IMG/VR virus record: IMGVR_UViG_3300006869_000064
Location: 1-29,906 of that record
Source: a virus
DNA: 29,906 bases
Reading direction: 5' to 3' (one strand)
Below, in pieces: positions 21,901 to 29,906 of this stretch. Under the pieces are notes generated by a model, which had not been told where the DNA came from, did no database searches, and saw nothing but the letters and a program-made list of their open reading frames with translations. Positions within the stretch are counted from its first letter, which is position 1, and each line of letters opens with the position of its first letter. The translations under genes were made by a program, and so were the position numbers.

Positions 21901-22616
21901 AGAGTAACACTTTCGCTAGCGTAATCACAGGGGCGCAATATCCGTGCGAGCCGTGCCTGTGTCAAGGCAGCGCTTTCATCCAGACCTTGCTTTTCGTATG
22001 CGGCCACGACTGCCTGCCACATTTCGTCAAGCGACGGGCCGACAGCATCAAGGATGCGCTCTGCACGCACCTTACCAATGGTCGGGCAGCCGGGGTAGCC
22101 GTCCGTTGCATCACCAGTCAGGGTCTGCATCATCCAGTACCTGTTCGCTTCGTCCTCGTTAATCTCGTAGACCTCGCCCGTATCCTTATCCAAGTGCATG
22201 CCCGGGATGGTCTTGAGGTCTTTGTCTATTGAGCAGATGATGCTGCCCGGTTCGCTACCGTGAATGCCCACGAGGTCGTCACCCTCAAGCTCGTCCACGA
22301 ATATCGCTCCGTACTTGTCTTGGGCATGCCCGCGCATTGCTGACCACCCAATAGGCCGTGCGCCTTTCCGGTTCTTTTTGTAGTCCGGGTAAATTTCTTT
22401 GCGGAAACAGTCAGCGCCACTCAGACACAGCAGCAACTCTTCCGCTTCGCACTGGTCACGTACCGTCTCGATCATGGCGTCAAACAAGACACCCGCCTCA
22501 GTGACAGACATGAACTCTTGCAGTACTAGGTCGCCGCCTACCTCGTGCTCAGCGACAGCAGTAGCGCCCATGCACGCCTGATAGACAACAACGTCTGCAT
22601 CTATGACGGCTCTCAT
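21873..22616 (-). CDS. 5'-3' exonuclease (T7 gp6-like, FEN family)
   Basis: The enzyme degrades host DNA and removes RNA primers and 5' ends during replication. In 247 residues it shows the FEN-nuclease acidic set: IDAD (Asp6, Asp8), DYKKNRK (78-84, the helical-arch region), ELEGDDLVGI (Glu109, Glu111, Asp113, Asp114), CSIDKDLKTIPG (Asp131, Asp133), and the LTGDATDGYPGCPTIG block (Asp169, Asp172 with the helix-hairpin glycine pattern). T7 gp6 has 300 residues, so this is a compact version. The ATG at 22616 overlaps the stop of the previous gene (ATGA). The frame extends to 22643 but without ribosome binding site. Confidence 0.92.
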   Translation of the reverse strand: MRAVIDADVVVYQACMGATAVAEHEVGGDLVLQEFMSVTEAGVLFDAMIETVRDQCEAEELLLCLSGADCFRKEIYPDYKKNRKGARPIGWSAMRGHAQDKYGAIFVDELEGDDLVGIHGSEPGSIICSIDKDLKTIPGMHLDKDTGEVYEINEDEANRYWMMQTLTGDATDGYPGCPTIGKVRAERILDAVGPSLDEMWQAVVAAYEKQGLDESAALTQARLARILRPCDYASESVTLWTPSTKTS

Positions 22617-22987
22617 ACTTTGTCGCCCCACCCTTCGGTACACGGGAATGCGATAGCGTGACTGACAACTACGACGATCTCGAACAGCGCATTGGGATCA
22701 CCGGCTAACTTGTACTCAGCAACGTAGTTCATGATGGTGTCTAGCGTTTGGTCTATGTCGTTACCGCCGGGTGCGTTGCAGACGACAGGCGTGCCGTATG
22801 CCAGCAAGCTGTGCACGTTAGCGCCATTGATCAGGCCTGCTACGTAGACCCACGCTGGGTGCTCGGGGCCTGCTTGTCGTGCCTCTTCCAGCCACGGCAC
22901 AAAGTCCGAAGGTGGCGACAACACGGCTTGCGACTGCGCACTGAAGGGGAACGCAAGCGCTACAAGTGCGGCGGCCAGTGCGCGCAC
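22613..22987 (-). CDS. exported small protein resembling the Rap1a/Tai immunity family
   Basis: Residues 1-21 are a classical signal peptide (Arg2, an Ala/Leu/Phe core, cleavage likely after AQSQA), so the 103-residue mature protein should reach the periplasm. The mature part follows the Rap1a/Tai pattern: a helix with WVYVAGLINGA, Cys70 after a variable loop, a helix with TLDTIMNYVAEY, and the terminal AFPC (Cys116). The two Cys could form a disulfide. Members of that family bind and inhibit type VI secretion peptidoglycan amidases, though many relatives are uncharacterised. The start is GTG 22987, one base after the preceding stop. It is embedded in the DNA-replication block, an odd place for an exported protein. 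The family assignment is by pattern only. Confidence 0.65.
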   Translation of the reverse strand: MRALAAALVALAFPFSAQSQAVLSPPSDFVPWLEEARQAGPEHPAWVYVAGLINGANVHSLLAYGTPVVCNAPGGNDIDQTLDTIMNYVAEYKLAGDPNALFEIVVVVSHAIAFPCTEGWGDKV

Positions 22988-22988
22988 G

Positions 22989-23126
22989 CTACTTCTTTTT
23001 CTTTGCTGCGAACCCGCCGGTCTTATTCTTCATCGCGCTGTAGGTCTTGGAGCTGATGGTGCTCTTGCTTTTCGGGCGCGACGTGCCAGCCTTTTTGCGA
23101 GCGTTCATGTTCTTGTATAACGACAT
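22989..23126 (-). CDS. 45-residue lysine-rich basic protein
   Basis: The ATG overlaps the DNA polymerase stop (TGATG), and TAG ends at 22989. The product starts MSLYKNMNARKKAGTSRPKS, continues with KSTISSKTYSAM and ends FAAKKKK. Very similar short proteins, with SLYxNxNxRKKAGTSR at the start and a polylysine end, recur in marine podoviruses near the replication genes. It has no Cys and about one third Lys/Arg, so it probably binds nucleic acid or an acidic protein surface. The tight coupling to the polymerase suggests co-production. Function is unknown. Confidence 0.85.
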   Translation of the reverse strand: MSLYKNMNARKKAGTSRPKSKSTISSKTYSAMKNKTGGFAAKKKK

Positions 23127-26814: not shown

Positions 26815-27281
26815 ATTTTCATCCATGCATCCGGCACGCGGCCTTCTGCCCATTTAAATTTGTGCTTGTCTGCCCACTGGCCCGCCGTCTTTTTCTGTCT
26901 ACCCGCCGATGTCTTTGCGTTAGAGAACAAAAACCTGATGTCTAGCTCTACGTGCTGCCTACAAACATGCAGCATTTTAGCCATACTGTCCCCGTCTAGG
27001 CGGCCCTTGGCCTCGACGTAGATCAAATGACCGTCTGCTCTGATCAGCACAAAGTCCGGTGAGTAGACGTGATGGGTGGCTGGTCGGGTCCACTGGATGC
27101 GGTCAATCATCCGCTCGTATCGGAACGAAATCTTGCGCTCGCACAGGTCCCGGGCAATCCGGTCTTCAAACTGTGACCGGAAGCCCTTAATGAGACCTTG
27201 CTGATCGTGCAGGTTGAGAGGGTTGTTGCTACGCCGCGCTCGCAAGCCCGCCGTCCTCTTCTTTCTTGTACGGGTTGTCAT
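26811..27281 (-). CDS. endonuclease I, Holliday-junction resolvase (T7 gp3-like)
   Basis: T7 endonuclease I resolves branched DNA and helps break down the host chromosome. The catalytic set is intact: GFRSQFEDR with Glu39 (T7 Glu20), YSPDFVL with Asp76 (T7 Asp55) and YVEAKG with Glu90 and Lys92 (T7 Glu65 and Lys67), followed by ELDIRFLFSN. The 156-residue form starting at ATG 27281 has a basic 30-residue N-terminal extension. A TTG at 27245, preceded by AAGAGGA at good spacing, would give a product closer to T7 in length (149) and is a serious alternative. Another TTG at 27320 is possible but unlikely. The gene starts inside the SSB-like gene and shares an ATGA junction with the helicase. Confidence 0.92.
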   Translation of the reverse strand: MTTRTRKKRTAGLRARRSNNPLNLHDQQGLIKGFRSQFEDRIARDLCERKISFRYERMIDRIQWTRPATHHVYSPDFVLIRADGHLIYVEAKGRLDGDSMAKMLHVCRQHVELDIRFLFSNAKTSAGRQKKTAGQWADKHKFKWAEGRVPDAWMKI

Positions 27282-27786
27282 TCGACGCACCGCCACCGGC
27301 TTCCTCAGTGTGCTCGACAAGCTTAATCACTTGGAACGACACGGGCTGGACTTGCATGTAGTGCTTGCCGCCGTACTCAGTGGTGCGCAGCTTGACAGTC
27401 GGGCGCACGATAGAGCCGTGACCCACTTCCCATGTCGGCTGCTGTAGGTCTGCGTCCCAGTTGAAAATCTTAGGCTGGCTGAAGTCCACGCCGTCCTTGA
27501 GGCGCTGGTCTCGTGCCGTGCGCAGCATCATCATCTGCTCGCCGAAGAGTTCCTGCGGCTTGACACGCAGCATTGGGTCAACACCCCAGCTCTCGTGCAG
27601 CATGTTCCAGTCGTTAGCGATCTCGTCCCACACCTGCATCGGCAGGCCAAAGGTCAGCTCGTACTTGCTGGTCGTCGCATCAGGCTGCGCTACTGCGTAC
27701 CACATTTGCTCGGCACGATTGCGGAGTAGGCGACAGCGCCCGAGTGTGAAGTTGCGCTCTTCAGAGGCTTTACTGAACGGTTTCAT
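27229..27786 (-). CDS. single-stranded DNA-binding protein (T7 gp2.5 position, OB-fold-like)
   Basis: From ATG 27786, with AAGGA about 9 bases upstream, the protein has 185 residues. The C-terminal half has the strand pattern common in podovirus SSBs: GHGSIVRPTVKLRTTEY, then HYMQVQPVSFQVIKLVE. Its place between the RNA polymerase block and endonuclease I is that of T7 gene 2.5, whose product coats single strands and coordinates polymerase and helicase. T7 gp2.5 is 232 residues and ends in an acidic tail with Phe. Here the tail (KKEEDGGLASAA) has only three acidic residues before a neutral end and no terminal aromatic. The reading frame stays open further upstream, inside the neighbouring gene. 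Sequence identity to gp2.5 is not obvious by eye. Confidence 0.72.
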   Translation of the reverse strand: MKPFSKASEERNFTLGRCRLLRNRAEQMWYAVAQPDATTSKYELTFGLPMQVWDEIANDWNMLHESWGVDPMLRVKPQELFGEQMMMLRTARDQRLKDGVDFSQPKIFNWDADLQQPTWEVGHGSIVRPTVKLRTTEYGGKHYMQVQPVSFQVIKLVEHTEEAGGGASNDNPYKKEEDGGLASAA

Positions 27787-28003
27787 TTGGAGTTTCCTTG
27801 AAGTGGAGTTGGAGAATATTGAACAGCTCTTCTGCTTCCTCATGATCCAGCTCGACTATCGAGCCACCATCTAGGAGCATCGAGACTTCCTCGACGGTCT
27901 CGCACTCGTCCAAGTCGTGCATGACGCCGATGTCGTAGAGGCTAAGAGTTCCGCTTGGAGTTAGCCCGAGAGCCAAGTCGTCGCTTAGTTGGTACAGGTG
28001 CAT
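27770..28003 (-). CDS. small acidic protein of unknown function
   Basis: The frame is open from 28093 to a stop at 27770; I place the start at ATG 28003 (77 residues), with ATG 27922 (50 residues) as an alternative. No start has a convincing ribosome binding site. The product is acidic (LDECETVEEV, ELDHEEAEEL) with an N-terminal strand-like part (LALGLTPSGTLSLYDI) and a C-terminal helix. It overlaps the four-Cys protein by 62 bases and the SSB-like gene by 17, in the dense style of this genome. T7-like early genes in this region often encode small inhibitors of host proteins, but nothing in the sequence shows a target. Confidence 0.55.
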   Translation of the reverse strand: MHLYQLSDDLALGLTPSGTLSLYDIGVMHDLDECETVEEVSMLLDGGSIVELDHEEAEELFNILQLHFKETPNETVQ

Positions 28004-28139
28004 GCTCGCCACATTTGTAATAGGGTGGGACATCCATAGATCGTGGGTATCGGCGACACTCATACTTGCCACTGATTGAGCGCTCGAAAGCATGAGCGCA
28101 GTTGTGACAAGCCGGGTCAGACTTGGAAGTAGCGGCCAC
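27942..28139 (-). CDS. four-cysteine mini-protein (probable zinc-binding)
   Basis: The 65-residue product has Cys11, Cys14, Cys28 and Cys43 in the arrangement CHNCAHAF, ECRRYP, YKCGEHAP. This is the same layout as many small phage proteins of the type CxxC...CRRxPP...WCGE, generally assumed to bind zinc. The C-terminus is basic (TKRRLGSRANSKRNS). The start is GTG 28139, with GAGGT at 8 bases, inside the last codons of the RNA polymerase gene. A second small gene overlaps its 3' part. Role unknown; nucleic-acid or protein binding is likely. Confidence 0.72.
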   Translation of the reverse strand: MAATSKSDPACHNCAHAFERSISGKYECRRYPRSMDVPPYYKCGEHAPVPTKRRLGSRANSKRNS

Positions 28140-29682
28140 TGTTCAGTACCTCTTCGATTTTGTGGGTGCCGTACTCAGGCAGGGGCGGAAGGTCATCAGC
28201 AAGCTGGCCTTGGAAGCACTCAGCAATTTGATGAAGGTGGTCAGGCTTGTACTGGTGCAGCCACGCTTGCTTCAGTGGCCCAAAGTGATCGAGCATGTCT
28301 TCAAGACAGGCAGCATGGACGCCAATGCTGTCGTGGATCAGGGAAACATTCGTGATGGGCTGCACGAGGTCACGTGCGTAGCTGACAACACGGCTCAAGT
28401 AGGCAGCTTCAAAGCTGTGGACGAACAGCGGCGGTACTTGTTGGCGCATCGCCCGCCCGTCCATTGTGTCTGTGTCATCCAGCACCACCGGCACGTACAC
28501 AGTCTGCCCGATGTGTGTCTGTATCTTGCGCGTGCGCTTCTGCCACTCAGCGCTGGCTACCGGGAAGCCACTCGGGCTAACCCAGCGCAGTACTACTTGC
28601 TCACGCGCAGCCTGTGCGGCTACCTCACCCAGCCACTTTTGCAGCGCGAACGGCTTGCTCATTAGCAGCTGTGCGGACTGCCAGAGACATTGGGTCAGAC
28701 ACAGACTGTAACGATAAAGGTCCGGGTACGGCGGCTGCATGTCGCCACGCTCGACTGCCCCAAAGACATGCTGGATCGTAGCGTTCTCGACGCTTCTGTG
28801 TCTTGCGCCGTAGCCCAACGGCATGACCACCCGCTTTGCATCGGCGCGCGTGATGCCCTTGCGGGCGACAGCATCAGCAACCTCAGTGCCGACAGTGCGT
28901 GCGAACGTGACAGCTAGCTCAGCGACCTTTGTGTACAAGTCGGGCGCTGTATCGTCGTCAGTCAGGTCAACGTGCGGAGCAAGTGTGTCGTCACGCATCA
29001 GTGCAGCGTAGTGTGCTGGCCCTGAGCACGTCTGGTCACGGTAGTGCACCATGTGATCGACGTAGCCTAGCCCGTGCGCGTGAAACTCGCTGAGCATTTG
29101 AGCTGCACGTAGCCGCATGAAGGGTGCCTCGCCGTGCATCCAGTCGTCGTGGCGCAGTGGCTCAGCGACACACCGGTCAGCCTGCTCGACTGTCAGTCCA
29201 TCGGGCCACAAGTCTGCGACCGTAGCCATCGCGTGCTCGACTGCCGTGTCGTTGGCAATCGGCATGCCTTCGGCAAAGTCCAGCATGCTCCGGTTTGTCT
29301 TGCTCGACTGCGGGCTGAGCGTAGGCTTGTAGTGCATGCGACCCGACTTGATCGTCTGCATTGGTAGCCACAGGCGACGGTCACGGTACTTCAAGGCATT
29401 CGCCAAGGCTGCACGCAGGCTTATCCGAGAGTGTCGGCTTGCGTTTTGGCTAGCGTGCCACTCGCGCAGCTCGTGCTTCATGCGCTTAGCTAGGTCTGGA
29501 TTGCGCCAGCTCGCCTCGTCCAGCGTCGGCTTGTCAATCGGCTTGCGGTAGTACGGAACGTCAAGGTCCCGCTGCACAGTTTCGTCAATGACACCAGCGA
29601 TCAGTGGGTTGCACTTGTAGGGTGTCAGTTGAGCGGCGTTGACAGCGTCCACAGCCATCGTGAGGTTTACATTATGCGACAT
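28117..29682 (-). CDS. T7-like RNA polymerase, separate catalytic-domain ORF
   Basis: This 521-residue protein contains the whole polymerase core of single-subunit phage RNA polymerases. Motif A is RDQTCSGPAHYAALMRD (Asp216 = T7 Asp537). Motif B is TRADAKRVVMPLGYG (Arg279, Lys283, Tyr291 = T7 Arg627, Lys631, Tyr639). Motif C is IHDSIG (His450, Asp451 = T7 His811, Asp812). LFVHSFEAAYL and an aromatic C-terminal end (YFQV, cf. T7 FAFA) follow the family. It aligns only from about T7 residue 315 onward. The missing N-terminal part is encoded upstream in another frame. An in-frame TAG at 29695-29697 separates it from any longer ORF. ATG 29682 is 9 bases after AGAGG; GTG 29691 is the alternative. 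The T7 DWRGR element is changed to IKSGR (111-115). Confidence 0.9.
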   Translation of the reverse strand: MSHNVNLTMAVDAVNAAQLTPYKCNPLIAGVIDETVQRDLDVPYYRKPIDKPTLDEASWRNPDLAKRMKHELREWHASQNASRHSRISLRAALANALKYRDRRLWLPMQTIKSGRMHYKPTLSPQSSKTNRSMLDFAEGMPIANDTAVEHAMATVADLWPDGLTVEQADRCVAEPLRHDDWMHGEAPFMRLRAAQMLSEFHAHGLGYVDHMVHYRDQTCSGPAHYAALMRDDTLAPHVDLTDDDTAPDLYTKVAELAVTFARTVGTEVADAVARKGITRADAKRVVMPLGYGARHRSVENATIQHVFGAVERGDMQPPYPDLYRYSLCLTQCLWQSAQLLMSKPFALQKWLGEVAAQAAREQVVLRWVSPSGFPVASAEWQKRTRKIQTHIGQTVYVPVVLDDTDTMDGRAMRQQVPPLFVHSFEAAYLSRVVSYARDLVQPITNVSLIHDSIGVHAACLEDMLDHFGPLKQAWLHQYKPDHLHQIAECFQGQLADDLPPLPEYGTHKIEEVLNSGRYFQV

Positions 29683-29906
29683 CGGAGACACCCTCTAACT
29701 CAGCGTGATCCGAACGTGTCCAGTCCTTACAGAACCCGTAAGCAGGAATGTCGTCGCTGTCGTAGCTACCGCCCCATAGGTGCCAGTCGCAGTCCCATGC
29801 TTTCGGTGGCACCACCATCGGCATAGGGAACCACGCCGCATCCACGAGCTGCTGCTGTAGTGCCTCGACACGATCACGGAACTGTGAGCTAGCAACGACA
29901 AGCGGC
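29672..29906 (-). CDS. T7-like RNA polymerase, N-terminal domain ORF (partial, runs off the window)
   Basis: Reading the minus strand from 29905 in the frame of codon CCG gives 77 residues ending at TAA 29672-29674. The segment FPMPMVVPPKAWDCDWHLWGG matches T7 RNA polymerase around residues 266-285 (CVVPPKPW, then GGGYW), the end of the N-terminal domain that forms the promoter-binding and RNA-exit surfaces. A helix with FRDRVEALQQQLVDAA precedes it, as in T7. The tail (YDSDDIPAYGFCKDWTRSDHAELEGVSDVA) has no T7 counterpart. The ORF overlaps the catalytic ORF by 11 bases in a different frame (+1). The 5' portion lies beyond the window. Confidence 0.8.
   Translation of the reverse strand, partial: PLVVASSQFRDRVEALQQQLVDAAWFPMPMVVPPKAWDCDWHLWGGSYDSDDIPAYGFCKDWTRSDHAELEGVSDVA
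29692..29696 (-). promoter_or_regulatory. ribosome binding site of the catalytic RNA polymerase ORF
   Basis: AGAGG stands 9 bases before ATG 29682 and inside the 3' end of the N-terminal ORF. It decides the start of the catalytic ORF and is the main argument that this is a real second cistron rather than a reading error. Confidence 0.7.

Follow-up and report, generated by a model that had tools for sequence, protein, structure and literature searches.

The phage represented by this DNA appears to carry a naturally split T7-type RNA polymerase (RNAP), in which the N-terminal domain and the catalytic core are encoded by two overlapping genes. We consider it probable, at roughly 0.8, that these genes are coupled cistrons and that their products assemble into a heterodimer transcribing the phage genes. 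We infer that two polypeptides are present in the cell, that they associate, that the assembled enzyme has promoter-specific activity and that translation of the two genes is coupled.

The sequence analysed, referred to here as the window, is a virus contig from IMG/VR, 29,906 bases long and incomplete, of a T7-like phage whose genes are read on the minus strand. Along that strand, gene order runs from the RNA polymerase through a gene occupying the ssDNA-binding protein position (27229-27843, minus strand, without a Pfam match), endonuclease I, primase-helicase, DNA polymerase and 5'-3' exonuclease to ribonucleotide reductase, portal, capsid, tail and internal proteins, the last three being named by position and size. 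Intergenic space is almost nil, and no repeated phage promoter was obvious by eye in the window. A short unlisted ORF at 22988-23125, located between the DNA polymerase gene and a 124-aa ORF (22613-22987), encodes a Lys/Arg-rich protein of 45 aa (MSLYKNMNARKKAGTSRPKSKS...KKKK). The closest isolates by portal (~54%) and DNA polymerase (~37%) are the Roseobacter phages CRP-403, CRP-118 and CRP-804. Scans with the RNAP core and the DNA polymerase returned near-identical contigs only, and no intermediate relatives of the window phage.

Positions 29672-29906 (minus strand) contain the last 77 codons of the gene for the N-terminal domain and its TAA stop at 29672-29674; the 5' part of this gene lies beyond the contig end. 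These codons include the conserved C-linker region motif MVVPPKAW...GGSY (29762-29818, minus strand; VVPPKPW...GGGYW in T7). The catalytic-core gene (28117-29682, minus strand) is read in the +1 frame relative to the N frame and encodes 521 aa from ATG 29682, or 524 aa if GTG 29691 is used. An in-frame TAG closes the core frame upstream (29695-29697), an AGAGG ribosome-binding site is located at 29692-29696, 9 bases before the ATG, and the two genes overlap by 11 bases, from the core ATG to the N-gene TAA (29672-29682; all on the minus strand). The duplex of the core ribosome-binding site with the anti-Shine-Dalgarno sequence has an energy of -7.1 kcal/mol, stronger than for most window genes, and the Shine-Dalgarno (SD) site of the core gene is also stronger than those at either candidate start of the N gene. 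The original prediction, made from the letters of the DNA, had the frames, the stop at 29672, the ATG at 29682, the spacing of the AGAGG and the blocking TAG correct to the base.

The N gene is complete in five related contigs (L002, L004, L005, L006 and L175), where a GTG start gives a product of 304 aa and an in-frame ATG one of 297 aa. The presence of a T7-type N-terminal domain in its product was established by profile and structural comparisons. An HMM built from 79 intact RNA polymerase N-domains, with split members excluded, matches the product with an E-value of about 1e-18 at positions 15-285/288. The product also matches the RNA polymerase profile phrog_414 at positions 7-255 of 816, and its AlphaFold2 model (pLDDT 85) aligns structurally with T7 RNAP residues 26-315 (Z 18.2, rmsd 3.4, 279 residues). 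A Pfam match was not found for the N product, which is recognised by PHROG and the HMM only. The end of this product had been taken for an extra polar tail; it proves to be homologous to intact enzymes, aligning with T7 residues 294-314 and with the intact-enzyme consensus LVKxxxxxYxxEL.

The core product matches Pfam RNA_pol (PF00940, E 1.4e-34), aligns in sequence with T7 RNAP residues 315-879 and covers phrog_414 positions 280-815 of 816. Its AlphaFold2 model (pLDDT 91) aligns with T7 residues 307-883 (Z 32.5, rmsd 3.0, 497 residues). Equivalents of T7 D537, R627, K631, Y639, H784, H811, D812 and R425 are all retained. On the minus strand, the mapped positions are the catalytic aspartate of motif A, D216 (T7 D537, within DQTCSGPAH; 29035-29037), motif B residues R279, K283 and Y291 (T7 R627, K631 and Y639; 28810-28848), the HDSIG of motif C (T7 H811-D812; 28321-28335), and R115 (T7 R425; 29338-29340), at which the DxxGR motif reads IKSGR. 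The Pfam match, the T7 alignment and the kept catalytic residues thus bear out the predicted catalytic core with motifs A, B and C. Six residues that are invariant or almost invariant across 47 relatives, corresponding to T7 D421, R423, Y427, Q544, N560 and D787, have been lost from the core. An intact DxxGR is consequently absent, with the G and the R425 equivalent kept and D421 and R423 lost; variation in this motif also occurs in other family members, such as N4 vRNAP with TxxGR. In the core tree, the branch leading to this core measures 4.3 substitutions per site against a median of 0.38, roughly ten times as long. The core has the look of an enzyme that is functional although strongly diverged; its divergence and the lost near-invariant residues may entail an altered or reduced activity.

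The break between the two products falls at T7 residues 307-315, in agreement with the predicted split near residues 290-315. In the models it is located in a loop that follows the last helix of the N product (residues 291-301) and precedes the core's first helix (residues 8-18). Relative to T7-type homologues the N and core products overlap by ~5 residues; together, they leave no part missing, and a one-base shift could have been the origin of the break. The claim that the joint was not a simple one-base break is therefore not upheld, since the pieces abut almost seamlessly and the fused relative HTVC011P, discussed below, differs from near-identical split contigs at the joint by a single base. 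Because both halves match one PHROG family end to end and the identical break recurs in six other contigs, the break is not a product of chance.

In the proposed mechanism, the N gene would be translated first and would supply a complete promoter-binding domain (304 aa, T7 ~26-315). Ribosomes terminating at TAA 29674-29672, within 11 bases of ATG 29682, would then probably initiate the core by translational coupling, and the core (521 aa; thumb-palm-fingers, T7 ~307-883) would start from its own ATG and the AGAGG located inside the end of the N gene. Coupled translation might also set the subunit ratio. Each chain would fold on its own, and the contacts normally made between the two domains would hold them together as a heterodimer. 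In T7 RNAP, promoter binding is a task of the N-terminal domain, which turns away about the C-linker hinge when initiation gives way to elongation (PMC3961267), and elongation still requires an N fragment of the enzyme (PMC4299499). As the break lies downstream of this hinge, the hinge would stay intact in the N subunit and the covalent tie to the core would be gone. A more far-reaching proposal is that the N product acts as a dissociable, sigma-like initiation subunit that guides the catalytic core to phage promoters and can leave, be limiting or be exchanged, that its supply regulates transcription, and that fission arose at least twice for being useful; we regard this as unlikely.

It is also improbable that no heterodimer forms and that the core acts alone or with host factors, the N product having some other role. 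The core model folds confidently on its own, and the partner needs of so diverged a core may have changed. Against this stands the requirement for the T7 N-terminal domain in both promoter contact and elongation (PMC4299499, PMC3961267). Furthermore, all contigs long enough to show both genes have them side by side and conserved, and what the N gene encodes is a whole domain, not a remnant. A heterodimer of the two products remains the preferred reading.

An alignment of homologues at the junction, suggested as a check together with the original prediction, revealed the identical break, overlap and ribosome-binding site in six other public contigs from six assemblies (L002-L006 from IMG/VR, five assemblies, and the 4.7-kb L175), with the AGAGG identical in each of them. 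Two reading frames are present in 7/7 contigs, the window included, and a single continuous polypeptide in none. A scan of IMG/VR for the junction pattern with variable spacing found no fused variant and returned only the 51-base form, in five contigs. Counted from the core ATG, positions -29 to +23 contain one variable inner site in the window clade, at -5, while the flanks vary more; this near-invariant block of ~50 bases fits a segment in which overlapping coding sequence and a ribosome-binding site coincide. Between the window and L004, 53 codons of the core gene carry synonymous changes and 7 carry nonsynonymous ones; the corresponding counts for the N gene, compared between L002 and L004, are 26 and 4. 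By this codon comparison, both ORFs are under purifying selection and both products are kept as proteins.

Two further observations concern the biology of this lineage. A tyrosine integrase gene (PF00589) is located immediately upstream of the split RNAP (L004:3142-4020, L002:1884-2765), and suggests that the window lineage is a temperate T7-like phage. L175 (WTIG01000177.1), which carries the window-lineage split RNAP, is binned in a Puniceicoccaceae (Verrucomicrobiota) MAG; this is a weak hint at the host, or a binning error.

A survey of other autographiviruses drew ~250 loci, almost all of them encoding an RNAP, from phage isolates, GTDB genomes and IMG/VR; the loci were partly fetched with split queries, and the survey counts are not prevalences. 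Wherever a locus reached far enough, we asked whether a single frame stays open from the N part into the core. Three split groups were found: the window lineage, pelagiphage group III with the exception of HTVC011P (sampled here as Fussvirus, Stopavirus and SAR11 single-cell genome contigs), and a Chosvirus clade. The RNAP of Fussvirus S30C28 is also annotated as two genes in the set of nearest annotated matches. The other autographivirus RNAPs with enough sequence are intact (80 and 65 in two sets, HTVC011P included). An SD-like motif precedes the core start in 80/80 split loci scored, a count that includes the window lineage and some loci fetched twice. At split loci, the overlap between the genes is 38, 32, 29, 20, 11 or 1 nt, and loci without overlap have gaps of 1, 9 or 497 nt; the window-lineage overlap was scored as 20 nt from the upstream GTG and is 11 nt from the favoured ATG. 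All three relative frames are represented among the group III and Chosvirus junctions. In HTVC025P (L015:2003-2501), two small ORFs of 48 and 85 aa are located between the RNAP halves.

Three candidates for further independent splits, L086, L228 and L246, were rejected: each has a one-base frame break without a new start or ribosome-binding site, as in an artefact or pseudogene. The breaks at L246:4950-5300 (Veillonella sp. CHU740, at a run of G) and L228:4700-5120 (a Sphingomonas MAG) are in prophage-like RNAP genes and are likely errors or decay. In Salmonella phage LPST153 (L011:1077-3855), the RNAP is annotated as two ORFs with an 11-nt overlap in mid-core; this looks like a one-base break, unlike the clean splits.

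The survey bears on a different reading of the junction, a programmed +1 frameshift between TAG 29695 and TAA 29672 that would yield one fused polymerase. Such a product would have near-normal spacing, given the ~5-residue abutment of the pieces; the junction block is nearly invariant within the clade, and the sequence of the window lineage is compatible with a low level of frameshifted fusion. However, none of the known +1 slippery sites is present in the zero-frame codons GAG GGT GTC TCC GAT GTC GCA TAA, and the core gene has its own start and SD. In HTVC025P, the inserted genes make the halves fully separate genes and exclude frameshifting there. Together with the occurrence of all three relative frames and of overlaps ranging from 38 to -497 nt, this insertion means that a programmed frameshift cannot explain the split clades, and we consider it a very doubtful account of the window junction. 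Two separately translated cistrons, as the original prediction proposed, are well supported by the fixed break, the purifying selection, the core's own start and SD, and the existence of two other split clades. Finally, although a one-base indel would join the frames and artefact-like one-base breaks without a new start do occur at L086, L228 and L246, a sequencing or assembly error or a recent pseudogene, which had been listed as a rival, is refuted by the independent assemblies: seven contigs share the break yet differ at dozens of synonymous sites, both ORFs are under purifying selection, and position -5 is the only variable site from -29 to +23 of the core ATG.

HTVC011P is the only fused member of group III. 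Its core is 98.9% identical to that of contig L130, the one member of a close set of split contigs (L129-L133) in which core identity was compared, and its joint (L016:2380-2580) differs from those of L129 and L130 by one base. A pattern scan allowing 0-3 bases did not find the fused joint, and the split form was present in 5/5 IMG/VR contigs. HTVC011P represents either a re-fusion by a single deletion or an error of the record at the joint. Unless the record is wrong there, HTVC011P and L129/L130 offer a natural comparison of the fused and split forms.

The three split groups do not all appear to share one origin. Group III and Chosvirus are united with 100/99 support in the core tree, which has 47 rows, and their split is probably a single event. 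The window lineage lies on a long branch of the RNAP tree, and its grouping with group III and Chosvirus is not rejected by an AU test (p=0.289). In the portal and DNA polymerase trees, the window phage groups with CRP-403 (support 84/89 and 84/83, respectively), and the split phages are united in 0/200 bootstrap trees. The window break is also ~15 residues downstream of that in group III and Chosvirus (T7 307-314 versus 292-300), and CRP-403, whose RNAP was checked, has an intact enzyme. The different break position, the portal and DNA polymerase placement and the intact RNAP of this close isolate argue for a separate fission. An independent origin of the window-lineage split is accordingly likely from these comparisons, with moderate support, the RNAP tree itself being unable to decide.

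Two-piece T7-type RNAPs have precedents in N4 RNAPII and in pelagiphage group III. The passages of Chen et al. 2019 that deal with the RNAP describe all group III RNAP genes except that of HTVC011P as 'fragmented into two parts', state that unsplit reads were not found, and mention the matter in passing as a gene interruption (PMC6811365). As in the window, HTVC019Pvirus group III (Fussvirus, Stopavirus, uv-Fonsiphage-EPL) has an N-domain gene followed by a core gene with its own SD and a small overlap, and an integrase is encoded upstream in several members. The differences are that the group III core starts with MHYNLxK (T7 about 292-297), whereas the window core does not and starts at T7 307, that core identity is ~25%, and that the nearest relatives by portal and DNA polymerase are not the same. 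CRP-403 shares the integrase before the RNAP with the window lineage but has an intact RNAP with 27% core identity.

N4 RNAPII (gp15/gp16, Schitoviridae) is a purified, biochemically proven heterodimer of T7 type (PMC4496689). Like the window enzyme, it is divided between two genes whose products make up complementary portions of a T7-type RNAP, and its PDB entries 6dt7 and 6dta are among the structural-alignment matches of the N and core models. Its break, however, is near T7 residues 449-454, between DxxGR and motif A, rather than at 307-315. The thumb and DxxGR consequently belong to the N subunit of N4 RNAPII, whose N domain is strongly truncated (PMC4496689), whereas the window N domain is complete; the N4 genes are 47 bases apart, and the window genes overlap. 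T7 RNAP itself has the same fold and motifs as the window enzyme but is naturally one polypeptide. It tolerates cuts in five seams according to a bisection map (PMC4299498), and the enzyme cut at 301/302 works once its halves are joined by light-controlled dimerising domains (PMC13304687). This engineered site falls between the two natural break positions.

What is new here is the same arrangement in an unrelated-looking and highly diverged lineage, with a different break position. The Chosvirus clade, the evidence that both window-lineage halves are under selection, the junctions in relatives that exclude frameshifting and the one-base comparison of fused and split forms are also new. T7 RNAP is the model one-chain transcriptase, which carries out promoter binding, initiation and elongation without factors. 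In the phages described here, the promoter-binding domain has one conserved gene and the catalytic core another, with the cut near a site at which engineers could split the enzyme, and some phages probably use the 'single-subunit' T7-type polymerase in a two-subunit form. SAR11 bacteria are among the most abundant in the ocean, and a similar cut is fixed in their phages, some of which are in culture, making it directly testable. In 2015, it was considered unclear how heterodimeric T7-type RNAPs arose and what advantage they confer (PMC4496689); phages with split RNAPs make that question testable.
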